Below are positions 43-28,170 of a stretch of DNA of 29,856 nt, piece after piece. The stretch comes from Candidatus Rifleibacteriota bacterium (GTDB lineage: Bacteria; Riflebacteria; Ozemobacteria; Ozemobacterales; Ozemobacteraceae): the NCBI GenBank assembly GCA_029565415.1, contig JAKQOH010000023.1:1-29856 (forward strand), written 5' to 3'. The notes below the pieces were generated by a model. That model did no database searches. It was not told the DNA's origin and worked only from the letters and a program-made list of their open reading frames with translations. Each line of letters begins with the position of its first letter. Positions within the stretch are counted from its first letter, which is position 1. The position numbers were made by a program, and so were the translations under genes.

Positions 43-2991
43 ATGCCTAAAACAAGTTCTGCTGTGGCGCAAGCGTGCGCCAAGATTGAAATCAGTACTG
101 ACGGCACTACCTGGGTTGACATCGGCTCGGAAACGACCACCGCTCTGTCAGGGACGCATGTCCGGGAGCGGATGTCGCGGCTCGAGACGACGGTCGGAAG
201 AGTCTGGCTGTTCGACGGGGCAGGGCGGATGGCGTATGGAACGGCTTCCGAGCCGGCCGTCATCGAGCGCGTCTTCCGGACCCTGCGCCGTCCCTGGTAT
301 GAGAGAACTGATATACATCATGATACATATCCCGGCAGCGTCGATCAGCTCGGTGGATTCAACTGGATCGATCTGATCGACCGGAACCGCCGGTTTTCCC
401 CCGTGAATGGCAGGGTGACATCGGGATGGGGCTACTGGGCCTGGCGTGACAATCTTGCCTCGGACACGATCGGGGGCCTGCTCGTTCTCCTCGACCGGAG
501 GGCTTTGGAAGGCGAAGCCGTGCTCGACTGGGTGACGGAGGATCTGCGCCGGTCGGGGATCGAGGTCGGTTGGCTTCACCGGCTGAATCCTGGCAGGAGC
601 CGGCTTCCCAGGGGGGTGTCCCTGGCCGCCGCGAAGGAGTTCGAACGGGCGCATCATGCGCAGGGGCTGGATGCCGTGCGCCTCGGCGATGCGGATGCCG
701 TGCTGCGGGGGTACCGCGACCAGAGCCTCCTGATACGGATCGTACCGGCCAGTTCGCCGCGCCTTCCCGCGGTCTCGTGGCTTCTGCTGCTTGTCTGGCT
801 CACCCCGGTCATCCGTTGGGTGCTGTTCGGTTCGGCATCGCCGGCAGCGGGAAGCGGGACTACGGCGCCCCGGCTTGCGACCCTGCTGCTTCTCGCCGTG
901 TCGGCCGCCGGGATCCTCCCCCTCGGGCTTTCACTCCTTCTCTGGCGGGAAGTCGCCGGGCGCCGCACGCTGGCCGTCACCACCGCCCTGTGCCAGGAAC
1001 TCGAACAGCGGCTGGTCCGCATCGACCGCAAGTTTCCCGCCCTGATCGAGCGGCTTGCCGCCCGCTACCGTGACTGGCGCGGCCGGCTCGAGGCGCAACT
1101 CGCGCGCGATCCGGCATTCCCCGACCTCCTGCAAACCTCCAGCCATGGCCTGGAGGTGCGGCGGTTCCCGGCGGAATCCCCGAAGGCACGCCTCATCGAC
1201 GAGACCCTGGAATGGGAAGAGCGGGGAACTCTCGACACCGTGTTCGTCGTCGACCGGAACGGCCGGTTCTGGCGGCCGCACAACGACAGCATGATGCTGT
1301 TCCGCCGGATGGCGCGGTGGCCCCGCGATCGCATGATGCGCACCCTTGCCAGCCTCTACGAGCGTCAGACGAACCGCTCCTGGCAGGAGTTCGAGTGGCT
1401 CCTCCGGATGCCGCCCGAGGGCTATCCGCGGGAACGGTTCTTCGGGGACAGCCTGTTTGGCCGCGGCGTCACGTCGCGGCTCTCCTCTCAGTTGAGCCGT
1501 GCGGCAATCAATAAATATAATATATGGAAAAACATATCAGATGATGTTTCCGGGCGAGAGGATGTCGCTGCGCTTGCGGTGACCGATATGGCCGTCTCGG
1601 CAGGGGGGGAGGATGTCGTCGCGACGATGCTGCGCCGGCTCGGGACGTTCACGATCAACTCGAACGAGGCCGGTGCCGCCGCCATGTTCGTCGATGTCAT
1701 CCGGGGCGCGACCGGCGCCGCGATCGGGTGTCTCACCGTTTTTCACCACTCCGGCGGGCTGGCGGCCCTGTTCTTCGACGAGCTCTACGCGACCTGGCCC
1801 GAACGAGCGGATGGGATGCGCCTGTATGCGATCTCCGAGTTCCCCTGCACCCTCCTGTATCCGGGGCTGCACGACGATCGGAAATTCTCGCGCCTGTTCC
1901 GTCGCCTCGAACCGCCCCACGTGATGCTGAGCCAGGCGGCCGTGGTCGACGGCAAGCCGGTCATCCTGGCGGCCCTCAACTGCCGCCAGATCTGGAACTA
2001 CTCCCTGGTCGGCACCCTGCCCTGGACACACGTCGAGGAACGGGTCGGCGCGTTCCGGAACCGCCTGCTCGGCGGAGCCTGTGCGATGAGCCTCATCCTC
2101 GGCCTGCTGTGCCTGCGCGTCTGGCGCGGGGTTGCCCGCCCCGTCGCGGCGCTCGTCGATGGCGTGGAAGCGATGGAACACCGCCGGCTCGAGCACCGGA
2201 TCGCGATCTCGACCGGGGATGAGCTCGAACGGCTTGCCGAGACGTTCAACGCTACCCTGGCGGGCATGGAGGAGCTGGAAGTCGCGCGGGTCGTGCAGCA
2301 GAAACTCCTGCCGGCCGGAGAGGTGACGTCGGGCCGCTGGCGATACCGCGGCGTCAGCGTCATGTGCAGCGAGGTCGGCGGCGATTATCACGATGCGCGG
2401 CTGTGCCCCGACGGGAGTATCGCGTTCTTCCTCGGCGACGTGTCGGGCCACGGGGTCTCGGCGGCGCTGGTCGTGGCGATGGCGAAGGCGGCGTTCGGAA
2501 ACCTCGTCCGGTCGGGCTGCGCCGAACCCGGGGAGCTGCTCGGCCGCCTGAACGAGGTCATCATCGGCACGGTGCGCAAGCGGAAGATGATGACCGCCGT
2601 GGCCGGCCTGGCAAAACCCGATGGAACGCTGCTTCTGGCGAACGCCGGCCATTGTTATCCGGCTCTGCTGCGCAGCGACGGGAGCGTCGAGCTCCGGCCC
2701 TGGCAGGGAAGCCTGCCGCTCGGCGTCCGGCTCCGCGGAAGCTGGACCACCCTCGGTCTTGAATTTGGCCCCGGCGATCGCCTGCTGCTGTACACCGACG
2801 GGATTCCCGAGGCCGTCGATCGCGACGGGGTGCAGCTCGGATACTCCCGCTGGGAGGAGTTCCTTCGGGCCGAAGCCGCCGAGCCCGATGCCGCACAGCT
2901 CATCTCGCGGCTTCACGACCGGATCCGGCGGTTTACCCAGCCGGTCGGCTGGACGGATGACGTGACGATCACCGTTCTTTCGTATAATTAG
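43..2991 (+). CDS. Membrane sensor with HAMP and SpoIIE/PP2C-type serine/threonine phosphatase; N-terminus appears chimeric
   Basis: The C-terminal domain (about 740-982) is a PPM/SpoIIE phosphatase expected to dephosphorylate Ser/Thr-phosphoproteins such as anti-sigma antagonists; no such partner lies nearby. The metal-binding aspartates are all visible: D781 in GGDYHD, D799 in GDVSGHG, D919 in YTDG and D972/D973 in WTDDVT, so it should be active. Membrane segments lie near 244-263, 278-300 and 675-693, followed by HAMP (about 694-755). The region between the second and third segments is probably extracytoplasmic. The two sensors downstream have a similar plan but begin with an extra membrane segment that is missing here. 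Instead, residues 1 to about 38 resemble the start of a phage tail protein and are AT-richer than the rest. A strong ribosome site (AAGGAG, 31-36) precedes ATG 43. Phosphatase call is firm; the natural start of the host protein is unknown. Confidence 0.85.
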   Translation: MPKTSSAVAQACAKIEISTDGTTWVDIGSETTTALSGTHVRERMSRLETTVGRVWLFDGAGRMAYGTASEPAVIERVFRTLRRPWYERTDIHHDTYPGSVDQLGGFNWIDLIDRNRRFSPVNGRVTSGWGYWAWRDNLASDTIGGLLVLLDRRALEGEAVLDWVTEDLRRSGIEVGWLHRLNPGRSRLPRGVSLAAAKEFERAHHAQGLDAVRLGDADAVLRGYRDQSLLIRIVPASSPRLPAVSWLLLLVWLTPVIRWVLFGSASPAAGSGTTAPRLATLLLLAVSAAGILPLGLSLLLWREVAGRRTLAVTTALCQELEQRLVRIDRKFPALIERLAARYRDWRGRLEAQLARDPAFPDLLQTSSHGLEVRRFPAESPKARLIDETLEWEERGTLDTVFVVDRNGRFWRPHNDSMMLFRRMARWPRDRMMRTLASLYERQTNRSWQEFEWLLRMPPEGYPRERFFGDSLFGRGVTSRLSSQLSRAAINKYNIWKNISDDVSGREDVAALAVTDMAVSAGGEDVVATMLRRLGTFTINSNEAGAAAMFVDVIRGATGAAIGCLTVFHHSGGLAALFFDELYATWPERADGMRLYAISEFPCTLLYPGLHDDRKFSRLFRRLEPPHVMLSQAAVVDGKPVILAALNCRQIWNYSLVGTLPWTHVEERVGAFRNRLLGGACAMSLILGLLCLRVWRGVARPVAALVDGVEAMEHRRLEHRIAISTGDELERLAETFNATLAGMEELEVARVVQQKLLPAGEVTSGRWRYRGVSVMCSEVGGDYHDARLCPDGSIAFFLGDVSGHGVSAALVVAMAKAAFGNLVRSGCAEPGELLGRLNEVIIGTVRKRKMMTAVAGLAKPDGTLLLANAGHCYPALLRSDGSVELRPWQGSLPLGVRLRGSWTTLGLEFGPGDRLLLYTDGIPEAVDRDGVQLGYSRWEEFLRAEAAEPDAAQLISRLHDRIRRFTQPVGWTDDVTITVLSYN

Positions 2992-3011: not shown

Positions 3012-3563
3012 ATGCGTGTGTTCGAGATCTTCTGCGAAATCGAGGGCGTGACTCCTCCCGTCTGGAGGCGGATGGAACTGGCCGAGACGCTCTCGCTGAA
3101 GGGCGTTCACGCGGCTCTACAGGCGGTGATGGGCTGGCGCGGCGAGTATCCGGCCTGCTTCTCGGCCGCCGGAACGCTCTGGCCCATCGGCGACTGGCCG
3201 GATCCCGGACGGGACGCGGCTGGCCTGACGCTGGGCGGTCTGCGCGATCTTGCGGGCGACGAGTTCTTCTACGATTACGAGCCGGACGATCCGTGGCGCG
3301 TCCGGTGCCGGTTCGAGGCAGAGAGCAGGGCCGATGCGATCCGGCCTCCCACCTGTCTTGCCGGCGGGCGCGCGGCCCCGCCCGACGGGGTCGGCGGTCG
3401 CGAGGGATACGCCGACTTCCTGCGCATGCTCGGGGATCCCGAGGCCGACCCGGACGAGGTCGAGGATATGCTGGAATGGGCCGGCGGCGCGTTCGATCCC
3501 GATGCGTTCGATCTCGCGGCGGCAAACCGCCGTCTGGAGCGTATCGGCGTGAACCGTCTCTGA
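3012..3563 (+). CDS. Plasmid pRiA4b ORF-3-like family protein
   Basis: 183 residues. The opening, with an IxGVTPPVWRR-like motif followed by a helix and the phrase AVMGW, matches the pRiA4b ORF-3 family (MM3350-like fold), whose biochemical role is unknown. The DYEPDDPWRVR stretch (about 89-99) corresponds to the family's conserved Y-D-x-G/P-D-x-W block. The C-terminal half is acidic (DPEADPDEVEDMLEW). A ribosome site AAGGAG lies just upstream of ATG 3012, about 20 nt after the phosphatase stop. A TATAAT at 2983-2988, within the last codons of the phosphatase, could be a -10 element, but no clear -35 accompanies it. The gene sits between the sensors and is probably co-transcribed; nothing shows a functional link to them. 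Confidence 0.8.
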   Translation: MRVFEIFCEIEGVTPPVWRRMELAETLSLKGVHAALQAVMGWRGEYPACFSAAGTLWPIGDWPDPGRDAAGLTLGGLRDLAGDEFFYDYEPDDPWRVRCRFEAESRADAIRPPTCLAGGRAAPPDGVGGREGYADFLRMLGDPEADPDEVEDMLEWAGGAFDPDAFDLAAANRRLERIGVNRL

Positions 3564-3609: not shown

Positions 3610-6600
3610 ATGGCCGAACGACCCGCTTCCCCCGCCCACGACCGCCGGCTCCTCATTCCCGTCCCGCCTCCCGGCGGCATCGTCGTCGCCGTCTGGCTGT
3701 TTCTGCTCGTTCTGCCCCTGCTCTGGCTGCTCGTCTGGGTGAACCGGTGGCTCGATCTCGAGGAGCAGTGGCGGGAGCTCGCTGCCCGCCGCGCGATGAT
3801 GAACGAGATGCAGGAACTCCGGCCCCGCCTGAACCCGACGAAGCGTCTGGAAGAAGCCCTGCGGGAGATCGAGGTGGGGCTCGGCTTTCCGGCGGTGCGT
3901 GGCGGCGCCTCATGGAAAGCCGCTTCGGGAACCCCCGGTCTCGATTCCGCCCGGCTGAACCGGGAGTTTTGTCTCGAGTGCCGGCGCAGGATCGGGTGTG
4001 AGCCCGTCTTCCTGCTCACGGCCGGTGCCGACGGCCGAACTCCCGAGCTTTCGATCCACCCCGGGCTGATGCCGGGGGCGCCGCCCCGGCCGGCCACCTG
4101 GCTGCCACTCTGGCTTGCCCTCGCCGGCTGGCCCGACCGCACCGACTGGATCGACGATCAGGAAACCCGCCGTCTGCGCCGTCGGTGGTCCGGTTCCATG
4201 GGACGGGAAGAGCTGGCTCGACGCTGTTCCGGGCTGCTGACGAGCCTGTTCGGCGGTGATCCCTTCACCGCGGAAGGGTGGGGGCTCGTTCAGCCCTTCA
4301 TCCGCATGCGGCCGGGCGGCGGGGCATTTCTTGCCGTCGCGAATTTCGTCGCGAGCCGGCCGGGGCCGTCGGCGGCCGTTCTTGGCGGGTATGTGGCCGT
4401 GTTCCGCAGATCCGAGCTTTCGAGGCGGTTCCTTCTCGAGCCGCTCCTGAAAAGGCCGGGTGGGGGGATCGCGGAGGGGTTCACGATCGTTCCCGCCGAA
4501 CGCCGGACCCCGACCCACATTGTCCTCACCTCCGGAGCTCCGGCAGAGCTTCTGCAGGAGTGGAGCCAGCGGCTCGGCCAGCGCCCCTTCCGTCTCGTGC
4601 TCCGCCGGGAACGGGCCGCGCTGCGCCACCCGTTTCGCGACTGGCAGCCCTGGCTGCGAGGCCTGTTCCTGATGGCCACCTTCGGCAGCGGCCTGTTCCT
4701 GCTGCTGAAAGACCGGGGGTCGAGTCTGCCTCTGAATATCCGCGGCCAGCTTGCCGCTGCGGTTGGCGTGGCAACGGTGTTGCCGCTCCTCGCGGGAGGG
4801 GGGGTGGTGATCTCGTATCTCGATTTCCGGCGTGAGATCGACCATGAGCTTCGGGGCAGGGGGGTCGCCGAACGGCTCGAGCTTCTGGAAAACGGGCTTG
4901 CCGGCCATCTCGAGGCATTGAAACATCGCATCGGCCGGCTCAAGGAAGGGGTTGCGGCGGGTCTCACCGCCGGGCCGTCCGAAACGAACCGTCTCGTCGG
5001 GCGGATCCGGCGGCGCGCATCAGCCCAGATGGCTCTTCTGATCACCGATGATGGGCAGGATGCGTTCGACGCCGACGCAGCGTTGCAGCCGCGGACCGGG
5101 CGGCTTGCCGACAAGCTTGCGGAGATGGCGCGCACGATCTCGATGCGCGTATTCCTCGCCGCCGGCTGTTTCGCCGAGGAGGAGCTCGATCGACCGCCGC
5201 GTTCAGGCCTCTGGACACGCCGCCGCCGGGCCGTCGCCTCGAACATCAGCATGATCGATATCGCCACCCTCCTCGAATCCGACGGCAAAGCCCTGGACCC
5301 GAAATTTTCCGGCATCACCGACAGCATCCTGTTCCAGTACATGGTGAAACACCCGCGAACGAAACGGATCCAGGCGCTGCTGTACGTGATGTATGACCGG
5401 GCCGGGCTGGTGCGCATGTATCTCGACAGCCTCGAACGCCGCAGGGAGCCGGCGAGCGAGTTCCTGTCGGGATCGGTGACGGACGTCGCCCTGTTCGGAA
5501 CCCTCGATCTCACCCGCCGTCAGCTCGATCCCGCCGTCGCCTGGCCACGGGCTGCCGAAGCCGACCCGGAACTGTTCGACCTCGCCCGGCATGCGTTGAC
5601 GATCCCAGCCGGAACGTTCCGGGAGCGGAGCCCGGCCGCGGATGTCGTGGCTCTCGTCCGGTCGTTTTCCGGATTCGGTGTCGTCGCGGTTGGCCGCTCC
5701 TCTCCCCTGTTTCCCGGCTGGGCGGTGTGGGAGGACCGACTTGTCATCGCGATCTGGAGCGGGTATGCGATTCTGCTCACGATGGTCGTGACCACGTATC
5801 TGACCCGGAACTTCCTCCGGCCGATCCGGACGATCGCCGATGCCGGCAACGAGGTTGCTGCGGGCCGGTATGACGTCACGCTGCATCTGCCGACCGGGGA
5901 TGAGTTCGGCGGTCTTGCCGACGAGTTCAACGCGATGACGGCGGGGCTGCGCGAGCGTGAGCGACTGGCCCGGTTCGTCTCGAAGGAGGTGCTCGAGACG
6001 GTGCGGTCGGACGATACGGCAAGCCTCGATCCCGGAGGCGAGCGGCGCCGGATCGGGATCCTGTTCGCGCATATCGTCGGTTTCGACCGGATTGCGGCCG
6101 GACTTGCCGTCGATGGAGTGTTCGAGCTGCTCAACGATCTCCTTCCGCGCCTGGAACGCAATCTCCACGACCATGGAGGAAGCCTCGACAAGGTCGTGGG
6201 AGACGGGGTGATGGGCGTGTTCCACTCCGGTCCGATTCCCGCGGCTACCCGGGCATGCCGCGCCGCGATGGCGATCCGGCAGACGATCGGACAGGTCAAC
6301 GCTGCGGGGCTGCGTACGGGGCTCGAACCGCTTCGCGTCTCGATCGGTCTCGCCTCGGGAAGTGCCGTCTGCGGGCGGATCGGCTCACGAACTGGGCGAC
6401 TCGATTTCACGGCGATCGGCGATCCCGTGAATCTCGCCGCCCGGCTCGAGGCCGAAAGCCGCAGCCGTCCCGGCGCTCCGGTGCTTCTCGATGAAGAGAC
6501 CGCGAGGGAGGCGGAGGCGGAAGTGAACTGTACACCGCTTGATATCATTCAGGTGCGCGGAAGGGTCAAGCCGGTCCGCCTCTTCACGATCGCATCCGGC

Positions 6601-6615
6601 GGTGAGATCCCATGA
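3610..6615 (+). CDS. Membrane sensor with HAMP and class III nucleotide cyclase domain of C2-like type (first metal Asp replaced by His)
   Basis: 1001 residues. Membrane segments lie near 25-45, 349-366, 381-404 and 711-731. HAMP (about 732-785) follows, then a class III adenylate/guanylate cyclase homology domain (about 805-990). The first metal-binding position, normally Asp in an FxDIxGF motif, is His821 (FAHIVGF). The second metal Asp is present (D865 in VVGDG). The substrate-side residues are all kept: K861, T934 (the Lys/Thr pair of CyaC and soluble adenylyl cyclase), N941 and R945 in the DPVNLAARLE block. A homodimer would therefore lack normal metal binding, while the subunit could supply the purine-binding half of a heterodimer. 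The stop codon overlaps the next gene's start as ATGA (6612-6615). No strong ribosome site precedes ATG 3610. Substrate (ATP or GTP) is not proven; Lys/Thr favours ATP. Confidence 0.85.
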   Translation: MAERPASPAHDRRLLIPVPPPGGIVVAVWLFLLVLPLLWLLVWVNRWLDLEEQWRELAARRAMMNEMQELRPRLNPTKRLEEALREIEVGLGFPAVRGGASWKAASGTPGLDSARLNREFCLECRRRIGCEPVFLLTAGADGRTPELSIHPGLMPGAPPRPATWLPLWLALAGWPDRTDWIDDQETRRLRRRWSGSMGREELARRCSGLLTSLFGGDPFTAEGWGLVQPFIRMRPGGGAFLAVANFVASRPGPSAAVLGGYVAVFRRSELSRRFLLEPLLKRPGGGIAEGFTIVPAERRTPTHIVLTSGAPAELLQEWSQRLGQRPFRLVLRRERAALRHPFRDWQPWLRGLFLMATFGSGLFLLLKDRGSSLPLNIRGQLAAAVGVATVLPLLAGGGVVISYLDFRREIDHELRGRGVAERLELLENGLAGHLEALKHRIGRLKEGVAAGLTAGPSETNRLVGRIRRRASAQMALLITDDGQDAFDADAALQPRTGRLADKLAEMARTISMRVFLAAGCFAEEELDRPPRSGLWTRRRRAVASNISMIDIATLLESDGKALDPKFSGITDSILFQYMVKHPRTKRIQALLYVMYDRAGLVRMYLDSLERRREPASEFLSGSVTDVALFGTLDLTRRQLDPAVAWPRAAEADPELFDLARHALTIPAGTFRERSPAADVVALVRSFSGFGVVAVGRSSPLFPGWAVWEDRLVIAIWSGYAILLTMVVTTYLTRNFLRPIRTIADAGNEVAAGRYDVTLHLPTGDEFGGLADEFNAMTAGLRERERLARFVSKEVLETVRSDDTASLDPGGERRRIGILFAHIVGFDRIAAGLAVDGVFELLNDLLPRLERNLHDHGGSLDKVVGDGVMGVFHSGPIPAATRACRAAMAIRQTIGQVNAAGLRTGLEPLRVSIGLASGSAVCGRIGSRTGRLDFTAIGDPVNLAARLEAESRSRPGAPVLLDEETAREAEAEVNCTPLDIIQVRGRVKPVRLFTIASGGEIP

Positions 6616-9563
6616 GCCTTCGACGCTTCGAGCTCGACCGCGACGCCGGAACCCGCGGCATGATGATCATCCTGGCATGGCTCGTGTTCCTGGCCCTGCC
6701 GGCGATCGGCCTGCGTTCGGCCGTGTTCCTCTGGCTCCAGAACGAGGAAGCCGGCCTCCGGTCCACGGTTCGGCGACAGATGCTCGAGGAGATGCGCCTC
6801 TTTCGGGATGACCTCCAGATCCCGCATGCTCTCGATGCTCTTTGCCGGCCGGTGCTTGCAGCCCACGGATGTTCCGAAAACGGGTCACCGGCCTCCGCGG
6901 CCGCGCTGATGCAGGCCGGACCGGAGGAGTTCGACCGGCTGTGCCGGGATCTGCGCACCAGAACTGCCTCACGGCCTTCGGTCTGCGCCCTGCTGATCCC
7001 TTCCCGCAAGGCCCTGTTCCTGCGGATTGATCCCGCCACCTTTCCGGGAAAACGGCCCGCCGAGGTCGAACGCGATCTCCGCGTCATTCTCGAGCCCCTG
7101 ATGACGCTTCGCGCCTCGCTCGATCGGTACACCCCCGGGGAGCAGAAAACGCTGGATCGCTCCCGGCAGGTATCGGAGAAGCTGTTCGGCGGGGATTTCC
7201 ATCTCGCTGCCAGCCTGAGAGGCGTCAGGACCGACGTTGCGCACTACTGCGGCACCGGCAACGTGTTCTGCCTCGTCGACTGGGCCGACGTGGCCGGACC
7301 CCGACCGCAGTATGTCGCCCGAGATGCGGCTCTGTTCCTTGCCCTGTTCCACGACCGCTTCGTCGATCGGGCGCATCTGCTGCCCGTGCCGCTTGCCGCC
7401 ACGGTGCACTCCTCTCTCCGGCGGCGTATCGCGCTTGCCGGGACCCGGGACCTTCCGCGCTTCGTGCGGGCGGGCGAAGCGCTCGCCATCCAGGATGTGC
7501 CGCCCTTCGAGTGGCCCGATGCCCTGCTGTGGCGCTCTCTCAGAAAACGGCCGAGTTCCGGTCTCCGGCCGGTCCTTGCCGTGACAGCCGATGCCGCCGC
7601 GTTCCGCCATCCCTGGCGGGCAAAGCTGCCCCTGTTCGATCTGGTTCTCTTCCTTTCCGTAGCCGTTTCGGCGCTTATCTGTTTCCGGGCGGCCTGGTTC
7701 GGGGAATCGCCGGGTACGGGACTGCGGCATCGCATTGCCTGGGGATTCGCGTTCGGAGCCGTGATCCCCTGCATCGGGCTGGCCCTTCTCGGGGTTGCCT
7801 CGGCCAAAACCGGCGAAACCCGGCTCCCCAGGGCCGTTCTCGCACATCTGTCGCGCCAGATGCATCGGCTGGACGACGCCCTGCGCATGGCCCGCATCAT
7901 CCGTGCCCGGACTCTCCAGAACCATGCCGATCGGTTGGCGCGGATCGGCAGCCGGCAACGGGATCTGGTCGAACGGGAACTGGAAACGGTGATCCGTCGC
8001 CGTCTGACACGCTCCATCCTGACGTTTTTCGCCGACGGGACGGATGCCGCCAGATCAAGTTATGGCGCTCGCGAGAGTGATGCGGGGCTGCGGCATATCA
8101 TGCGCGGGATCGTCCAGGATTCTCTGCAGAAACTGGGAGGTGCCGATTCCGCCAAGGCGGCCGGAGAGGGCCGCAATATCCAGGCGAGCATCGACATCGC
8201 CCGCTCGATCACCGCCGAATATCTCGACGATGCCTACATCGACGATCTGCTGACTCATGCCCCGGGAGTGATCGGCAACCCCTTCGCGACCGAACACCAG
8301 TTCATGGGCGTCCAGGTCTCTCCCCCCCTGGGATCCGGCCGTCCGCCGGCGATGATGAACGTCATCTGGGGCGGATGGGACACCATCTCGAACGACTGTT
8401 TCCACCATCTGAAAAGCCGGAGCCGGCCCGACTTCGCCGAACGGCGCTCGCAATGGAATATAACGTATTATTTATATAATATTGAATCTGTCGATCCTCC
8501 GCGACTCGCCTGGAACGAACTGTCGGCCGATCAGGACGGGTGGAGCCGGTACCGCCGGCTGGCGGATGTCTGTCTGCGCCAGTCCCTGGGCAGGGAATAC
8601 GACGGACTGCCCGACGAGCCCGAAACGCTTGCCGTGTCGAAATCCTTCGCCTATGGCAATGTCGTGGGTGTGGCCGTCGCCGTCCCGAACGGTCGTGACG
8701 CCGGGCCCGGCTGGGGTGGGGCGGCTGCGGCCATCGTCACCGCCTGGCTTGTCGTGACGATGGCAACGGCGTTTTTTCTGACCCTGCCCTTCCCCCCGTT
8801 CCTCGAGGCGACACGGCTGACGGCGCGGGGAGAGTATGGCTGGCACCTGGCGGTCCGCCGTGCCGACGAGTTCGGCCGACTGGCCGACGTGTTCAACGGT
8901 ATCGCTCGCGGCCTGCGGGAGCGGGCCGGCATGGCGAGGTTTGTTTCCGAAGGGGTCCTGACGGCCGTGCGGGCGGCCGACACGGGGACTGCCGGTATGA
9001 CCGGAGGCGGGGAGCGGGTTGGTGCCGCCGTCCTCTGCTCCGATATCCGCGGCTTCACCACGCTGTCCGAATCCCATGAGCCCGAACAGGTTGTCACGCT
9101 CCTGAACGGGTATTTCACCCTCATGGAAGAACCGATCTCGGCTGAGGGGGGCAGCATCGAGAGTTATCTCGGCGATGCGATCGTCGCGGTCTTTCCGGCA
9201 AGGCCTGGTTTTGAAGAGCCTGAAATTCGCGCCGTCCGGGCCGCCTTCGGCATGCGTGCGGCTCTCGAGCGGTTCAATGCCCGCCGACGCGCCGAAGAAG
9301 CATTCCCCATCGAGACGGGCATCGGTATCGCAGCCGGAACGCTGTTGTGGGGCCGGCTCGGCGGGGAAGACGGGCGGCTCCTGCCGGCCCTGATCGGGGA
9401 TCCCGCCGATCGTGCCCCGCGCTACGAAGCGGCCACCAAGGGGCGGGGCGGCTCGGGGATCCTCGTGGATGCACGCGTTCGGGAACGGCTCGGGGAACGG
9501 TTCCCGGGGGGGGAGATCGATCACGAGGGCGAAACCCTGTATCTCCTCGACAGGCCCCGATGA
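6612..9563 (+). CDS. Membrane sensor with HAMP-like linker and class III nucleotide cyclase domain of C1-like type (metal site kept, base-binding residues lost)
   Basis: 983 residues with the same plan as its upstream neighbour: membrane segments near 17-38, 340-360, 375-398 and 707-727, a HAMP-like stretch (about 735-785), then a class III cyclase domain (about 800-975). Both metal-binding aspartates are present: D811 in SDIRGFT and D855 in YLGDA. The base-contacting Lys is Ser851, the Asp/Thr position is Ala926 and the transition-state Asn is Asp933; Arg937 remains. This is the mirror image of the lesions in the preceding protein. The start overlaps that gene's stop by 4 nt, which suggests translational coupling. 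Residues 616-626 are encoded by an unusually AT-rich codon run. Cyclase homology is certain. Activity as a homodimer is unlikely, and heterodimer activity is inference. Confidence 0.85.
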   Translation: MSLRRFELDRDAGTRGMMIILAWLVFLALPAIGLRSAVFLWLQNEEAGLRSTVRRQMLEEMRLFRDDLQIPHALDALCRPVLAAHGCSENGSPASAAALMQAGPEEFDRLCRDLRTRTASRPSVCALLIPSRKALFLRIDPATFPGKRPAEVERDLRVILEPLMTLRASLDRYTPGEQKTLDRSRQVSEKLFGGDFHLAASLRGVRTDVAHYCGTGNVFCLVDWADVAGPRPQYVARDAALFLALFHDRFVDRAHLLPVPLAATVHSSLRRRIALAGTRDLPRFVRAGEALAIQDVPPFEWPDALLWRSLRKRPSSGLRPVLAVTADAAAFRHPWRAKLPLFDLVLFLSVAVSALICFRAAWFGESPGTGLRHRIAWGFAFGAVIPCIGLALLGVASAKTGETRLPRAVLAHLSRQMHRLDDALRMARIIRARTLQNHADRLARIGSRQRDLVERELETVIRRRLTRSILTFFADGTDAARSSYGARESDAGLRHIMRGIVQDSLQKLGGADSAKAAGEGRNIQASIDIARSITAEYLDDAYIDDLLTHAPGVIGNPFATEHQFMGVQVSPPLGSGRPPAMMNVIWGGWDTISNDCFHHLKSRSRPDFAERRSQWNITYYLYNIESVDPPRLAWNELSADQDGWSRYRRLADVCLRQSLGREYDGLPDEPETLAVSKSFAYGNVVGVAVAVPNGRDAGPGWGGAAAAIVTAWLVVTMATAFFLTLPFPPFLEATRLTARGEYGWHLAVRRADEFGRLADVFNGIARGLRERAGMARFVSEGVLTAVRAADTGTAGMTGGGERVGAAVLCSDIRGFTTLSESHEPEQVVTLLNGYFTLMEEPISAEGGSIESYLGDAIVAVFPARPGFEEPEIRAVRAAFGMRAALERFNARRRAEEAFPIETGIGIAAGTLLWGRLGGEDGRLLPALIGDPADRAPRYEAATKGRGGSGILVDARVRERLGERFPGGEIDHEGETLYLLDRPR

Positions 9564-9567
9564 AAAC

Positions 9568-9590
9568 GGCGCCCCGCATCGCGGGGCGCC
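9568..9590 (-). terminator. Perfect hairpin terminator between convergent genes
   Basis: A 10-bp perfect stem (GGCGCCCCGC / GCGGGGCGCC) with a 3-nt loop lies between the stops of the cyclase (9563) and rubrerythrin (9612). Read on the minus strand it is followed by GTTTTC, so it best fits termination of rubrerythrin transcription. It may also act for the plus-strand sensor transcript. Confidence 0.75.
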
Positions 9591-9611
9591 GAAGGGGTCA
9601 GAGGGCGTGAA

Positions 9612-10310: not shown

Positions 10311-11207
10311 TCACCGCGGCGCCGGCAGAACCCCCGAGCGTCGCAGGAAGTCCAGGACGACGGGTTCGAAGGGTGCCGGCGGCGGCTGGTGCCCGCGCAC
10401 GTGGGGTGCGTCGGGGATGACCAGCTCCTCGGCATGGGGAACGGCGGCGCGCAGTCGGTCGTGGTCCTCCCGGGTCGCCCGCACGTCGAGGGCGTCGTGG
10501 ATCAGCAGGATGGGGCGGCTTGCCACCCCCCGGATTCCTTCCACGGGCCGGTTCGAGGCGTAGTCGTACCCCGTTCGCCAGCGGGAGAATGCGAACAGGA
10601 TGTCGATGAGAGGGGAGTCGGGAATCCCGCTCACCCGGAGGATGTCCCGGGCCGCGATGATCCGCAGCTCGGCGAAGCTGGACTCGAGAAGGAATGCGGT
10701 GATCCTCGGAAGGCGGCCCGAGCCGTTCGCCAGGGCCGCCGCCCCCATCGACCGCCCGTAGGCGGCGAGAGGCATTCCGGCCGGCAGCAGCCCCTGCGTT
10801 TCCGCGGCCGCGATTACCGCCGCGATGTCGTCCCCCTCGTGAAGCCCGATCGAGGTGTAGGCACCGCCGCTTTTCCCATGAGCCCGGAAATCCAGTGCTA
10901 AAATATTATATCCATTCGAATGTAAAAAATCGGCCATATCCATCAGGTGCCGGTGGTCGACGCAGTGGCCGTGGCACAGGAGAACGGCGCCGGCATCCGG
11001 ATGCCCCGGGAACCACCGGCCGGCGATCCTCGTTCCGTCACGGTTCAGGCAGGTGAACGCCGTTCCTGCGAGGCTGCTCGGCTTCGAGGGAGGTCCGACC
11101 CTGCGGGGCGTCGTCAGGATGTTCGAGACGGCAACGGCGAGGAGACTTCCGCCGGCACCCAGGAGCGTGAGGGCCAGCGCAAGCCGGAACAGGGTGCCAT
11201 GCTTCAT
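10311..11207 (-). CDS. Membrane-anchored alpha/beta hydrolase
   Basis: 298 residues. An N-terminal hydrophobic segment (about 8-30) suggests a signal anchor, so the catalytic domain is probably outside the cytoplasm. The fold is the alpha/beta-hydrolase type often annotated BAAT/FrsA-like or YqiA-like: HGHCVDHRH oxyanion region, nucleophile S153 in GRSMG, acid D241 in HDALDV and base H269 in DAPHVRGH. The substrate is unknown. The ATG overlaps the stop of the upstream histidine kinase by 4 nt (ATGA), so the two are translationally coupled, an uncommon pairing. Codons for about residues 92-104 (10896-10932) form an AT-rich island unlike the rest of the gene. Confidence 0.85.
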   Translation of the reverse strand: MKHGTLFRLALALTLLGAGGSLLAVAVSNILTTPRRVGPPSKPSSLAGTAFTCLNRDGTRIAGRWFPGHPDAGAVLLCHGHCVDHRHLMDMADFLHSNGYNILALDFRAHGKSGGAYTSIGLHEGDDIAAVIAAAETQGLLPAGMPLAAYGRSMGAAALANGSGRLPRITAFLLESSFAELRIIAARDILRVSGIPDSPLIDILFAFSRWRTGYDYASNRPVEGIRGVASRPILLIHDALDVRATREDHDRLRAAVPHAEELVIPDAPHVRGHQPPPAPFEPVVLDFLRRSGVLPAPR

Positions 11208-14200
11208 CGTGTCGGCTCCTTGAAATCCTGGGAATCGGGGCCGGTGCCGTCGAGGCTCGCGGCAAGGGCTTCCAGTTCGGTCGCGAACGCCTGGGACAGG
11301 GGAACGAACGCCGCCATTGCGGTTTCGACGCCCGCGGCATCCCGTGCCCGTGCGGCGCGCTCGACGGCGCTGACCGCTTCGAACACGCGTTCGGCGGCGA
11401 ATGTGCCGATGGTGCCCTTGAGGGTGTGGGCGCGGCTCGAGACGCGGTCGAGATCCTGCGCAGCGGTGGCAGCTTCGAGTTCGCCCAGCATGCCGGGATA
11501 CTTGCCCAGAAAGATGGAGATCAGCTTCCGCAGCACATCGGTCTGGCCGCAGACCCGCCGGAGCAGATGATCTGTATCGATAAGAATAGAATGGTCGTCC
11601 CGGTTGCGGCAGCTGGTCAGGGTCGCGGCGATCACGGCCAGCAGACGCTGCGGGGTGTAGGGCTTCGGGAGATAGCCGTCCATGCCCGCGTCGAGACAGG
11701 ACTGCCGGTCGGATGGCGAGGCGCTGGCCGTCACGGCAATGATCGGCAGATGGCCACCGGCTGCCCGTTCCCGTTCACGGATGGTGCGGGTCAGGGTCAG
11801 CCCGTCGGTGTCCGACACCTGCAGATCTGTCAGCAGCAGGTCGAAGGGCGTGGCGGCGGCCTGTCGTGCCGCTTCGGAGCCGCTCGTCACGAGGGTCACG
11901 TTCCAGCCGTGCTGGGTGAGAATCGTTTCGGCCAGTTTCCCGTTGATTTCGTCATCCTCGACGAGCAGGATGGAACCGGCAGGCCCGGTTCTGACCGGTG
12001 GCGCGTCGTCGGCGGCGATGGCGTCGACCGTTTCCTGCCGGTGGCGCCGGAGGCGAATCGTGAACCGGAACGTCGACCCCTCGCCGGGCTGCGAGATCAC
12101 GTCGATCTCCCCCCCCATCAGATGCACGAGATGGCGGCAGATTGCCAGGCCCAGCCCCGCTCCTTCGCGCCCGGCCGAACCGCCGTGGTGAACCTGGGAG
12201 TAGGAACGGAACAGATGGGCCATCTGGTCCGAAGGGATGCCGATTCCCGTGTCGCGCACGGCGAAGGCGATGACGGCCGGGCCGTCCTTCTCATCCGTGG
12301 GGAGAGTCGCCGAAAGCCGGACACTGCCTCGCTCGGTGAATTTGATCGCATTGTTCAGAAGATTGAGCAGAATCTGGCGCAACCGGAACTGGTCCCCCAC
12401 GACCCAGCGCGGGACAGCCGCCTCGATCGAGCTGACCAGCTCGAGATGCTTGGCGGCGGCTTTTCCGGAGAGGAGTTCCAGGGTGTTGGAAAGCAGTGCG
12501 TGGAGATCGAAGGGGGTTTCGTCCAGCTCCATCCGGCCGGCGCCGATGCGGGAAAAATCGATGATGTCGTTGAGGAGGGCGAGCAGCGATTCGCCGGCAT
12601 GGCGGATGAGCTCGAGATAATGCTGCTGCCGCGGAACCCTGATCTCGGCATGGAGGACGTCGATCAGGCCCAGCAGAGCATTCATCGGTGTGCGGATTTC
12701 GTGGCTCATGTGGGCGATGAACCGGCTCTTCTCCTGGTTGGCGGCTTCGGCGACTTCCTTGGCGCTGGCGAGGGCCTGCTCCATTCCCTTGCGGTGGCGG
12801 ATGTCGATGAAGCTTTCCAGAAGATGGGGGACGCCGCCGAGTTCGAGCTGCGTGACCTGCTTGAGGATGGGGATCCGGGAGTTGGCCGGCCCGATCAGAA
12901 TCCGTTCGGCGTTGTCGATCTGCTGGCCCAGATCGGTGATCGGGCATTTGCCGGCTTCGGAAGGGCAGATGAACCGGTGGCAGACCCGTGCGATGACTTC
13001 TTCCCGCTTTTTCCCGAGGAGCGCGAGAGCCGCGGGGTTCGCGTCGACGATCGTGTGGTCGCCGGCCCGGATCAGCAGCATCGCGTTGGGAGCGGCGGCA
13101 AACAGTTTTCCGAACCGTTCTTCGCTTTCGTTGTGCATTTTCTCGAGCAGATGGCGGGAAGCCAGATCGTGGACGAACAGCAGATACACGTCGCGGTCAC
13201 GCAGCTTGAGGCAGGAGCCGGTGACCGCGGCCGTCAGTTCCGGCTGACCGGGGCCCTGAAACCGGCGTTCGACCATGGCGAACGCGGGGCCCGAAAGGCG
13301 GGGGAAAAACTCCGTGGCATCCGCCTCCCCGTTCATGCAGATCTTTTCGTAGGTCTGCTTCTGCAATTCCTCGGTTGACGGCGCCCCGAGAGCCCGACAG
13401 ATGAAGGGATTCGCCTCGAGAATGCGGTGCGTCAGCGCATCGATGATCAGAATGCCTTCCGGAGCGTTTTCGAAGATGGCACGGAACTGGCGCTCGACTT
13501 GCATGACCTGCCAGCTCCCTTCCCGGATGCGTGCCGTGCCGATGTGGAATGCCAGAACCAGCATCAGCAGCACAAGGATGAGGGCGAGGGGAAAATATCG
13601 CGCATGGAACAGGGGCGTCGCGTCGGTCATGACGAGAATGCGCCACCCGGGCGGATTGACCGGAACGGCCAGACAGAACGCAGGTTGCATCGGGAGATTG
13701 GTATATCCTGGAATATTGAAAGGGGTCGGGAAGATCGCCGAGGAGGCGATGATTCCGAACTGCCTGGACGCGGTGAGCTCGGCCATTCGCTGGGGGGGAA
13801 GGGGAAAGAGCGGCTTCAGGTCCCAGGTGGGCCGACTGCCGAAAAAAACGATGCCGTCCGGGCTGAGGAGGAGGGCGATCGCATGCCGGTGGAACAGATC
13901 GCCGAGAAACTCGATGTCGCGCTTGATGACGGCGACGCCCAGCAGGCTGCCGTCGGAGGCGATGAGGGGCTTCGATGTGTAGTGGCCGCGAACCCCGGAT
14001 GTGACGCCGAGCGCGAAATACGTATCCAGCTTGCCGGAAAGGGCGCTTCCGATGTAGGGCGGGTGCACGTAGGAATGGCCGACGAAGCTCGTCGGCTCGT
14101 TCCGGTTGGAAGAGGAGATCACGGTTCCGGAGTTGTCCGAGAGGAGGCAGACCGAGTTCGGGATCGCGGCGGAGAAGCGTTCGAGGAGCTCGGCGCAGGC

Positions 14201-15112
14201 CTGCGTTCCCCTTCCCGAGATCGCTTCGGTGACGACGGGGTGCGTGACGAGGAGCGCGGCCAGCCGCTCGTCCTCCCGGAGCCGGTCCGAGACGGCGCTG
14301 GACAGGATCTCTGCTCTGTTGCGTGTTTCGGCTTCGAGCACGTTCTTGGCACGTGATTCCAGGTGGGCTGCGGACAGGATGCCGGCAAGAGAGAGCGCCA
14401 GGCTCACGACGACGATCCAGCGGCCTATCAGGGGGGGCGGCGAGGGGAGACCATCGAAGGTCATCCGGTTGAAATGCACATGGAGACACAGGGCGGCGAG
14501 ATACGAGGAGACGACGCCGAGAAGGATCCCGGCCAGGATGGTCGGGGTGTGCATCGGCAGGGTGGTCAGGAGGGGAAGCCTGTCGACGTAGGCGAGAAAA
14601 CTCGACACGCCGAGAAAGAAGAAACTTGGAAGGACGCAGACAGGAGCGCGTTTGAGCCCGGGAAGTGTCGGGGCGAGCCGATGGAGCGTGATGCCGATGC
14701 CGATCGTGCCGAGACCGAACACGAGGTGGGATGCGGGATGGAGAAAGGAGGACGGCAGCGCGATCAGAAAGGCGATGCCGATGATGATGACGACGCCGAA
14801 GGTCGCCTGGTGGTGGCTCGAGGCGAACGCCGTGTTACGATGAAACTCGGCGAGCAGCAGACCCGCCGTCAGCAGCAGAGTCGTATGGAGGGGCAGACTC
14901 GCTCCCGCATGAGGGGGGGCGGACGAGAACACCATTACCAGATAGTTGATGCCTGCAATGGCGAACGCCGGCCAGACGCAGTTCCAGGAATATTTGCGCC
15001 GCAGCGCCGAGGGCATGCTGAGAACGATAGCCGAAATCAGCAGCCAGCCGATTCCCTGGAAAAATGCCAGCGCAAAAGGCTTGGTGATGGCTTCGAGCAC
15101 GAATGCCGTCAA
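11204..15112 (-). CDS. Tripartite hybrid sensor histidine kinase (membrane domain, Cache, two PAS, HisKA, HATPase, REC, HPt)
   Basis: 1302 residues. Domains in order: a polytopic membrane region with about eight segments (about 10-250); a probable double Cache extracytoplasmic sensor (about 265-515); a membrane segment (about 517-540); PAS 1 (about 555-670); PAS 2 (about 675-780); HisKA with phospho-acceptor H804 in HMSHEIRTP; HATPase with N box LLNNAIKF and G boxes DTGIGIP and GLGLAI; a receiver with D1096 and a KP motif; and an HPt with H1229 in AHTLKG. All phosphorelay residues are intact, as in ArcB/BarA-type kinases; the final response regulator is not in the window. PAS 2 holds C711, C716 and C723 in a CHxxxCPxxxGxCP pattern. 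The start is TTG (15112-15110), needed to include the first membrane segment, with AGAGG 10 nt upstream. Confidence 0.92.
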   Translation of the reverse strand: MTAFVLEAITKPFALAFFQGIGWLLISAIVLSMPSALRRKYSWNCVWPAFAIAGINYLVMVFSSAPPHAGASLPLHTTLLLTAGLLLAEFHRNTAFASSHHQATFGVVIIIGIAFLIALPSSFLHPASHLVFGLGTIGIGITLHRLAPTLPGLKRAPVCVLPSFFFLGVSSFLAYVDRLPLLTTLPMHTPTILAGILLGVVSSYLAALCLHVHFNRMTFDGLPSPPPLIGRWIVVVSLALSLAGILSAAHLESRAKNVLEAETRNRAEILSSAVSDRLREDERLAALLVTHPVVTEAISGRGTQACAELLERFSAAIPNSVCLLSDNSGTVISSSNRNEPTSFVGHSYVHPPYIGSALSGKLDTYFALGVTSGVRGHYTSKPLIASDGSLLGVAVIKRDIEFLGDLFHRHAIALLLSPDGIVFFGSRPTWDLKPLFPLPPQRMAELTASRQFGIIASSAIFPTPFNIPGYTNLPMQPAFCLAVPVNPPGWRILVMTDATPLFHARYFPLALILVLLMLVLAFHIGTARIREGSWQVMQVERQFRAIFENAPEGILIIDALTHRILEANPFICRALGAPSTEELQKQTYEKICMNGEADATEFFPRLSGPAFAMVERRFQGPGQPELTAAVTGSCLKLRDRDVYLLFVHDLASRHLLEKMHNESEERFGKLFAAAPNAMLLIRAGDHTIVDANPAALALLGKKREEVIARVCHRFICPSEAGKCPITDLGQQIDNAERILIGPANSRIPILKQVTQLELGGVPHLLESFIDIRHRKGMEQALASAKEVAEAANQEKSRFIAHMSHEIRTPMNALLGLIDVLHAEIRVPRQQHYLELIRHAGESLLALLNDIIDFSRIGAGRMELDETPFDLHALLSNTLELLSGKAAAKHLELVSSIEAAVPRWVVGDQFRLRQILLNLLNNAIKFTERGSVRLSATLPTDEKDGPAVIAFAVRDTGIGIPSDQMAHLFRSYSQVHHGGSAGREGAGLGLAICRHLVHLMGGEIDVISQPGEGSTFRFTIRLRRHRQETVDAIAADDAPPVRTGPAGSILLVEDDEINGKLAETILTQHGWNVTLVTSGSEAARQAAATPFDLLLTDLQVSDTDGLTLTRTIRERERAAGGHLPIIAVTASASPSDRQSCLDAGMDGYLPKPYTPQRLLAVIAATLTSCRNRDDHSILIDTDHLLRRVCGQTDVLRKLISIFLGKYPGMLGELEAATAAQDLDRVSSRAHTLKGTIGTFAAERVFEAVSAVERAARARDAAGVETAMAAFVPLSQAFATELEALAASLDGTGPDSQDFKEPTR

Positions 15113-26961: not shown

Positions 26962-28170
26962 ATGGCGCTAAGTGATGTCCTGATCCGCACGGCGAAGGCG
27001 ACCGACAAGGTTTTGAAATTGTTCGACGGCGGCGGGCTGTTCCTTCAAGTTACCCCCGCCGGCGGAAAATGGTGGCGACTGAAATACCGTTTCGCCGGCA
27101 AGGAAAAGCTTCTCGCGATCGGGACTTACCCCGACATCAGCCTGAAGGAAGCACGGCACCGCCAAGGCAAGGCAAAGGAACTTCTTGACGCCGGCATTGA
27201 TCCGAGCGACGAGCGGAAGGCAGTCAAAGCATCGGCGGCGGAGCGGGCGGCGAACAGTTTCGAGGTGATCGCCCGCGAGTGGTTCGCAAAATACGGGGCG
27301 GAGTTCTCCCCGGGCCACGCCGAACGGGTAGAGGTCCAGTTGACGAAGGATGTATACCCTTGGCTGGGTGGCCGGCCGGTGTCCGAGATCTCACCGCCGG
27401 AGCTGCTGCGGGTGGCGCGTCGGGTTGAAGACCGTGGCGCGATCGAGACGGCACACAGAATACTCGGGATCTGCGGCCGGATATTCCGCTATGCCGTGGG
27501 ATCGGGCCGGGCCGATCGTGACCCAACGGCCGACTTGCGCGGCATTCTGAAGCCGAAGCCGAAGGCGCAGCACCGTGCCGCCGTCACGGAACCCGATCGG
27601 GTGGGGGATCTCTTGCGGGCCATCGAGGGATACCACGGCAACATCACCGTGAAAATGGCGCTCGTGCTTGCGCCTCTCGTCTTCGTCCGTCCTGGGGAAC
27701 TGCGAAAGGCGGAATGGAAGGATATCGATCTCAACGCGGCGGAATGGAAATTCATCGTCACGAAGACGAAAACACAGCTCGTCGTGCCGCTGTCACGTCA
27801 GGCCGTGGCGATCCTCGAGGAACTTCATCCCCTGACCGGCGGCGGGCGGTATGTCTTCCCGAGTGCTCGAACGACGGAACGGCCGATGAGCGACAACGCC
27901 ATTCTTTCGGCGATGCGCAGGATGGGCATACCGAAAGATGAAATGTGTGGTCACGGCTTTCGTGCCATGGCTCGAACGCTGCTTGACGAGGTTCTACACT
28001 TCCCCGCCGATATCATCGAGCATCAGCTTGCCCACGCCGTTCGTGATCCGCTGGGCCGGGCGTATAACAGAACCACCAAGATCGACGAGCGCAGGAAGAT
28101 GATGCAGGAATGGGCGGACTACCTGGACGGCCTGAAAAACCAGAACATCCGACCGGGCCGGGTGGCGTGA
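26962..28170 (+). CDS. int: P4-type tyrosine integrase
   Basis: 402 residues, normal for P4/CP4-57-like integrases. The N-terminal DUF4102 arm-binding domain is recognisable (TDKVLKLFDGGGLFLQVTP and IGTYPDISLKEAR), followed by a SAM-like core-binding domain (about 95-190) and the catalytic domain. Catalytic residues visible are R243 in VRPGEL, H331-x-x-R334 in HGFR, H354 or H358, and nucleophile Y368 in AYNR. The RRKMMQEWADYLD tail is typical. It catalyses site-specific insertion and excision of the element at the adjacent tRNA-Leu. ATG 26962 has AGAGGAG 10 nt upstream. The protein looks intact, so the element may still be mobile if an excisionase is present; the AlpA-like protein is a candidate. 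Confidence 0.96.
   Translation: MALSDVLIRTAKATDKVLKLFDGGGLFLQVTPAGGKWWRLKYRFAGKEKLLAIGTYPDISLKEARHRQGKAKELLDAGIDPSDERKAVKASAAERAANSFEVIAREWFAKYGAEFSPGHAERVEVQLTKDVYPWLGGRPVSEISPPELLRVARRVEDRGAIETAHRILGICGRIFRYAVGSGRADRDPTADLRGILKPKPKAQHRAAVTEPDRVGDLLRAIEGYHGNITVKMALVLAPLVFVRPGELRKAEWKDIDLNAAEWKFIVTKTKTQLVVPLSRQAVAILEELHPLTGGGRYVFPSARTTERPMSDNAILSAMRRMGIPKDEMCGHGFRAMARTLLDEVLHFPADIIEHQLAHAVRDPLGRAYNRTTKIDERRKMMQEWADYLDGLKNQNIRPGRVA

Follow-up and report, generated by a model that had tools for sequence, protein, structure and literature searches.

Two overlapping genes of the window (the whole stretch of DNA that was analysed, 29,856 nucleotides) code for predicted membrane receptors that end in a class III cyclase domain, and in each of the two domains part of the catalytic site is lost. 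The question raised by this locus is whether the genes specify two enzymes or two subunits of a single one.

Layout of the gene pair

The upstream gene (3610..6615, plus strand; defined by open reading frame and domain searches, hydropathy and a structure model) encodes a subunit of 1001 amino acids, and the downstream gene (6612..9563, plus strand) one of 983 amino acids. The stop codon of the first and the start codon of the second overlap in an ATGA sequence (6612..6615, plus strand). A GC-rich hairpin of 11 pairs, whose T-rich tail is found on the minus strand only, lies just past the second stop codon (9567..9591) and is a possible transcript end.

Hydropathy and models gave the same order of parts for each chain: from the N- to the C-terminus a helix, a region of about 300 residues, two helices, a second region of about 300 residues, a helix, a HAMP-type segment and the cyclase domain. 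In the upstream protein the predicted extracytoplasmic regions (residues from about 43 to 340 and from about 405 to 705) are followed by a HAMP domain with a Pfam match (residues 731-782; 5800..5955, plus strand) and by the cyclase domain (residues 805-994; 6022..6591, plus strand). The downstream protein is laid out similarly, with a profile match to the cyclase domain at residues 797-968 (9000..9515, plus strand). Four hydrophobic segments were detected downstream and three upstream by the hydropathy scan, the second upstream helix (residues 341-368) appearing in the model only; the predicted topology has about four membrane helices per subunit.

Both cyclase domains have the class III fold and scored above the curated cut-off (21.9 bits) of the PF00211 profile, with 55.9 bits for the upstream and 34.4 bits for the downstream protein. 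The monomer models of the two chains had a mean pLDDT of 75.2 each, and the match lists obtained from fold searches with these models were filled by cyclase domains. An hhalign comparison showed homology along the whole length of both chains (926 columns, E 4.3e-90, 21% identity), which makes them diverged paralogues. A preliminary description of the locus had placed different sensors on the two halves. By the same alignment these sensors are not unrelated domains, though they may still respond to two different signals.

Catalytic residues and proposed mechanism

In animal transmembrane adenylyl cyclases the C1 domain contributes the metal-binding Asp residues, and the C2 domain the Lys, Asn and Arg. 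The upstream protein is C2-like. At the position of the first metal Asp it has H821 (6070..6072, plus strand), and it retains the purine-binding K861 (6190..6192, plus strand) as well as the purine and transition-state residues T934, N941 and R945 (6409..6444, plus strand). The downstream protein is C1-like: D811, the first metal Asp (9042..9044, plus strand), is kept, S851 replaces the Lys beside the retained second metal Asp D855 (9162..9176, plus strand), and A926 and D933 stand at the positions of the Thr and the Asn, followed by a retained Arg, R937 (9387..9422, plus strand). Every residue named in the preliminary description, and the ATGA overlap, was found as described. One chain thus has both metal Asp residues and the other the Lys, Thr, Asn and Arg, neither chain being complete by itself. 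Combined, K861, T934, N941 and R945 of the upstream and D811 and D855 of the downstream chain make a complete composite site; the mirror composite (H821 and D865 with S851, A926, D933 and R937) is incomplete.

We predict that the two proteins together form an adenylyl cyclase that is an obligate heterodimer and has a single active site, and assign to this reading a probability of about 0.9. On this view the genes specify the unlike subunits of a single membrane-bound receptor cyclase. Each subunit would combine two predicted extracytoplasmic sensor regions (about 300 residues each) with a relay of the HAMP type and a class III cyclase domain. We infer that the cyclase domains would dimerise head to tail. 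The downstream chain would then hold the two metal ions by D811 and D855 and supply the phosphate-binding loop. In the upstream chain, K861 and T934 would bind the adenine, N941 and R945 would serve in the transition state, and a basic RGR motif would hold the triphosphate. ATP would be converted to cyclic AMP at this single composite site. The mirror-image site would be dead, possibly with a regulatory role like that of the forskolin site of the animal enzymes, and neither chain would work as a homodimer. Because both sensor halves would set the geometry of the one site, its output could depend on both inputs.

The product might also be cyclic GMP or another nucleotide, and a guanylyl cyclase, Cya2 (by title), is among the nearest solved relatives. 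However, the purine-specifying positions of the composite site, K861 and T934, carry the residues of an adenylyl cyclase and align with Lys and Thr in CyaC, an enzyme of that type, whereas guanylyl cyclases have Glu and Cys or similar residues there; a product other than cyclic AMP is considered unlikely. Receptors for cyclic AMP are likely to be present in the three genomes searched for them, in which 17, 19 and 24 cyclic-nucleotide-binding domain matches were obtained.

Conservation in orthologues

Orthologues were collected at 50% identity or more from about 8000 scored candidates per search. Counting the window proteins, 8 upstream and 10 downstream orthologues were found. A profile search for further full-length relatives, with the candidate list limited to 7990, returned the same 8 upstream orthologues plus domain-level matches. 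Candidatus Ozemobacteraceae is the name given for two close relatives of the upstream protein. The six catalytic positions read His-Lys-Asp-Thr-Asn-Arg in 8/8 upstream orthologues. All ten downstream orthologues retain both metal Asp residues, with Ser or Thr at the Lys position, Asp at the Asn position and Ala, Thr or Met at the Thr position; the Arg position is occupied by Arg, Lys or Thr (Lys or Thr in 3/10). In neither set (8/8 upstream, 10/10 downstream) did the lesions vary independently, in agreement with the complementary losses claimed in the preliminary description.

Sorting of half-sites in the wider family

Each of the 39 genomes of the same phylum that were searched gave matches at E 1e-20, and the best 80 of 572 matches were kept from a scan of genome contigs. 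Loci were read with a profile built in this analysis. The Riflebacteria group as used here comprises the 39 genomes and the contig-scan loci so titled, and includes one locus (L002) titled Candidatus Methylomirabilis. Cyclase domains are numerous in these bacteria, six genomes (G001-G006) having 31 to 87 class III domain matches each, a large expansion.

Domains were sorted by the metal Asp, Asn and Arg positions, leaving out Lys and Thr. The 305 non-redundant domains of the group fell into 99 complete, 98 C2-like, 96 C1-like, 9 partial and 3 other domains. Lys and Thr, neither of which had been used for sorting, were both retained in 98/98 C2-like domains. Their first metal position was occupied by His (26), Ala (25), Gly (17), Ser (16), Gln (5) or Thr (3), more rarely by Arg (2), Glu (2), Lys (1) or Val (1), and the second was still Asp in 70/98. 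The C1-like domains had 16 different residues at the Asn position and 15 at the Arg position. Among domains of other bacteria from the same scan, 73/73 had both metal Asp residues, Asn and Arg; 9 were without the Lys.

Two features outside the sorting positions were scored after alignment rows with more than 40 gaps had been dropped. The Thr of the phosphate loop, which presumably binds phosphate, was present in 95/96 metal halves, 7/97 substrate halves, 92/97 complete domains and 64/64 domains of other bacteria. The motif [KR]G[KR] near the C-terminus, which we take to hold the equivalent of the triphosphate Lys of the soluble guanylate cyclase beta chain, was found in 2/96, 96/97, 74/97 and 61/64, respectively. 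In the metal halves the region of this motif is missing or unalignable, and in the downstream window protein it was not recognisable past the cyclase match. As the unsorted positions split in the same way as the sorted ones, whole half-sites, beyond single residues, are retained or lost. A further alignment column was taken by us as equivalent to the position of an extra C1-type gamma-phosphate Arg. It holds Gly in 95/96 metal halves but also in 59/97 complete domains and 61/64 domains of other bacteria, and this residue (position 4 in PMC3591389) was rejected as a mark of the split.

These data bear on a different explanation, in which each protein homodimerises: the upstream protein would be catalytically dead and serve as a receptor or scaffold, the downstream protein would be a cyclase of weak or altered activity, and the pairing of the genes would reflect shared regulation only. 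A dead domain would have no need of the Lys and Thr kept in 98/98 C2-like domains, and the wide variation of the Asn and Arg positions in the metal halves and the recurrence of the same split in fused chains also speak against it. In its favour it can be said that adjacent genes need not form a complex, that the downstream protein has both metal Asp residues and the Arg, and that domains without Asn or Arg occur in other proteins too. On balance, separate homodimers are regarded as very improbable. Among the counterpoints to an obligate heterodimer are the retention of R937 in the downstream protein and of the Lys in 65/96 metal halves.

Linkage of the two half-types

Genes on the same strand with a gap of up to 300 bases, or fused, were counted as a cluster. 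A complementary domain was adjacent or fused to 87/96 C1-like and 87/98 C2-like domains. There were 80 clusters of two or more domains, 62 of which consisted of one metal and one substrate half. The others contained two of each (8), three of each (1), a partial domain (3), two metal halves and one substrate half (2), one metal half and two substrate halves (1), or a pair plus a complete cyclase (3). With uneven numbers in some clusters and an extra complete cyclase in others, the halves may not be paired strictly one to one.

The preliminary description had proposed a C1/C2-type pair with one composite site. Surveyed for the two variants together, the relatives bear this out: both half-types were present in 77/77 clusters with full data from the selected loci, none containing one type only, and in the full census of one genome given below. 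Loci outside the census genome were chosen from match lists, and the proportions are biased for this reason. If 62 metal and 62 substrate halves were paired at random, only mixed pairs would arise with a probability of about 10^-17.5, a figure not to be taken literally since the clusters share ancestry and are not independent events. A linked pair or fusion was found in 21 of the 23 genomes with long contexts, and none in the short stretches read from the remaining two (G016 and G024). In the preliminary description the ATGA overlap of the window pair would keep the ratio of the two subunits equal. The two-gene pairs overlapped by four bases in 32/76 cases and by four bases or one base in 34/76; the metal half came first in 50/76 and the substrate half in 26/76.

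Among the 99 complete domains, 3 adjoin a C2-like gene and 96 show no neighbour, but for 57 of the 96 the flank on one side is shorter than 2.7 kb. The half-types outside clusters (9 substrate, 6 metal) lie mostly at contig or locus ends; among them is the L002 pair, which is separated by more than 300 bases. Two half-types show no partner, one of 245 amino acids (L203) and one of 669 amino acids with 1.2 and 3.2 kb of flank (L266).

Several arrangements were more elaborate. Arrays of alternating half-site genes, four to six in a row, occur at L144, L183, L208 and L254, and in L010 (6893-16775) two metal-half genes are followed by one substrate-half gene. In three genomes (L261, L262 and L263) the orthologous pair is directly preceded by another cyclase gene, whose product has a complete site (DKDDNR) and exceeds 1000 amino acids where not cut. 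The apparent exceptions L112-L114, in which a complete gene seemed to be paired with a C2-like one, proved to be cut views of these three-gene clusters.

Fused chains and stand-alone receptors

Receptors of the group occur in three forms: stand-alone complete proteins, adjacent complementary pairs and fused chains of about 2000 residues. Eleven distinct fused frames were found in four genomes, ten of them complete (1976-2321 amino acids) and one cut by the end of the stretch, and the metal half preceded the substrate half in 11/11. All ten fused chains with full data had exactly one composite site and no self-complete domain. Seven to eleven hydrophobic segments were detected in seven fused chains; two had exactly eight, with four in front of each cyclase domain. 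In alignments of the first half of these chains, 907 columns were covered with the upstream family and 628 with the downstream family. For two second halves the alignment with the upstream family was confined to the final 278 and 312 columns, which take in the last helix, HAMP and the cyclase; their sensor regions may have diverged or be different. The stand-alone complete receptors (about 1000 amino acids) aligned over 925 columns.

Cyclase census of one genome

All cyclase domains were read in the genome of Candidatus Rifleibacterium amylolyticum (G003, which contains locus L009), a relative of the window organism. Of its 61 PF00211 matches, 18 are metal halves and 18 are substrate halves; a further 23 domains are complete, and 2 (L247 and L260) are odd. 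The 36 half-sites were organised in 18 units, 13 of two genes and 5 fused proteins. No complete domain of this genome was beside another cyclase gene on the same strand. One substrate half (L255) has lost the second metal Asp, not the first. The odd domain of L260 (3343-5670) belongs to a lone cyclase-like protein of 775 amino acids that has lost residues of both halves (ERDSAT).

Evolution of the half-types

A FastTree phylogeny was calculated from an alignment from which the six catalytic positions had been removed. One branch had 83/84 metal halves on one side, together with two foreign rows, and another had 82/83 substrate halves together with one foreign row. A further branch separated all 167 halves, accompanied by six complete domains (four from receptors of about 1000 amino acids), from the other rows. 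In a mixture-model tree of 84 rows, which had less resolution, the substrate halves were scattered. Separate origins of the substrate half, as this scatter might imply, were not adopted, because a single clade was not rejected (p-AU 0.542); the trees favour one origin.

Distances between partners were correlated (r 0.783 for 84 pairs; the maximum of 2000 shuffles was 0.143), as expected if pairs have been inherited together. This is relevant to the specificity of pairing. The presence of 18 halves of each type in one genome, clusters with uneven numbers and alternating arrays of up to six genes would be compatible with a combinatorial system, in which any metal half pairs with several substrate halves in the cell and no private enzyme exists. 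Private pairing is favoured by adjacency, by gene overlap (34/76), by the correlated divergence of partners and by fusion in four genomes, and we consider the combinatorial system possible but doubtful.

For the family as a whole, a somewhat better than even chance is given to the following history. A homodimeric receptor cyclase was duplicated, the copies lost opposite half-sites, and some pairs were fused in the order C1-then-C2. An adenylyl cyclase of the animal pseudo-heterodimeric type would then have evolved independently in the Riflebacteria group, its stages coexisting in one genome and yielding up to 18 single-site, two-sensor detectors of two inputs.

Comparison with known cyclases

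The half-site split itself is already known from animal adenylyl cyclases and soluble guanylate cyclase. The animal transmembrane adenylyl cyclases likewise have one composite site, as predicted for the window pair, and their C1-then-C2 order is common to the fused Riflebacteria-group chains. They differ in being one fused chain, whereas the window pair consists of two open reading frames. They have six helices per half, whereas the window proteins have about four predicted helices, large extracytoplasmic regions and HAMP; with three and four hydrophobic segments, two six-helix bundles were not found in the latter. Animal C2 has Asp at the position where the window substrate half has Thr.

In searches at E 0.001, alpha chains of soluble guanylate cyclase came up for the downstream protein, and beta chains as well as C1-type chains of animal adenylyl cyclases for the upstream protein; whole-domain similarity alone does not, then, make the upstream protein a C2. 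Like the window pair, soluble guanylate cyclase consists of two separate homologous chains, but it is eukaryotic, has a soluble haem sensor and produces cyclic GMP. In the passages available from PMC3591389, the beta chain uses a Lys and an Arg for the triphosphate (K593 and R552) and the alpha chain two Asp residues for the metal (D486 and D530), and homodimers are inactive. The chytrid RGC1/2 proteins with NeoR, according to the available passages of PMC7655827, are receptor halves with different sensors that are active only as a heterodimer; they resemble the window pair in having two receptor halves, but are eukaryotic and light-driven and make cyclic GMP. Rv1625c/Cya of Mycobacterium tuberculosis, as far as the available text describes it, is unlike what is predicted for the window pair, being a homodimer with two nucleotide-binding sites and six helices per chain.

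Complementary losses were also seen elsewhere. Among domains outside both orthologue sets (n=258 with full data), 208 were complete, 36 lacked Asn or Arg (14 of the 36 in two-domain chains) and 14 lacked a metal Asp. These tandem cyclases resemble sAC (ATPase and TPR regions). In 14 such proteins the second domain has lost a metal Asp, and the first keeps both but is without Asn or Arg. They differ from the window pair in being single chains without a recognised membrane sensor, and the Lys is lost in the second domain of 11/14. Such chains (P0227, P0230, P0238, P0239, P0242, P0255 and others) lie outside the Riflebacteria-group family, and by their sequences they count against full uniqueness of its split.

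In the available part of a 2022 review (PMC9552081), bacterial class III cyclases are said to homodimerise, fused dimeric species are described as unknown in bacteria, and the advantage of cyclase duplication and fusion is posed as a question. Among the titles and beginnings of abstracts listed by searches of the open full-text literature, none described a bacterial membrane class III cyclase that is heterodimeric. Since all three forms (stand-alone, two-gene and fused) are found side by side here, the question posed in the review can be tested within one bacterial family. Naturally split cyclases with one predicted active site should also be useful for studying half-site function and two-input cyclic AMP sensing. 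Annotation as two ordinary cyclases would hide one enzyme that is probably encoded by two genes.

Other genes of the window

Upstream of the pair, window positions 43-2991 encode a protein of 982 amino acids with HAMP and a SpoIIE-type phosphatase domain, whose first 690 residues are without a Pfam match and gave no match to the sensors of the cyclases. It was considered as a third paralogue or shared sensor and rejected, its matches starting only at the last helix and HAMP region. A PRiA4_ORF3-like protein (3012-3563) is encoded between the phosphatase and the cyclase pair. A hybrid histidine kinase (PAS, HATPase, receiver and Hpt domains) is encoded on the minus strand at 11204-15112. At 26962-28170 there is a phage-type integrase with a DUF6387 protein after it, which may mark an integrated element where the window ends.
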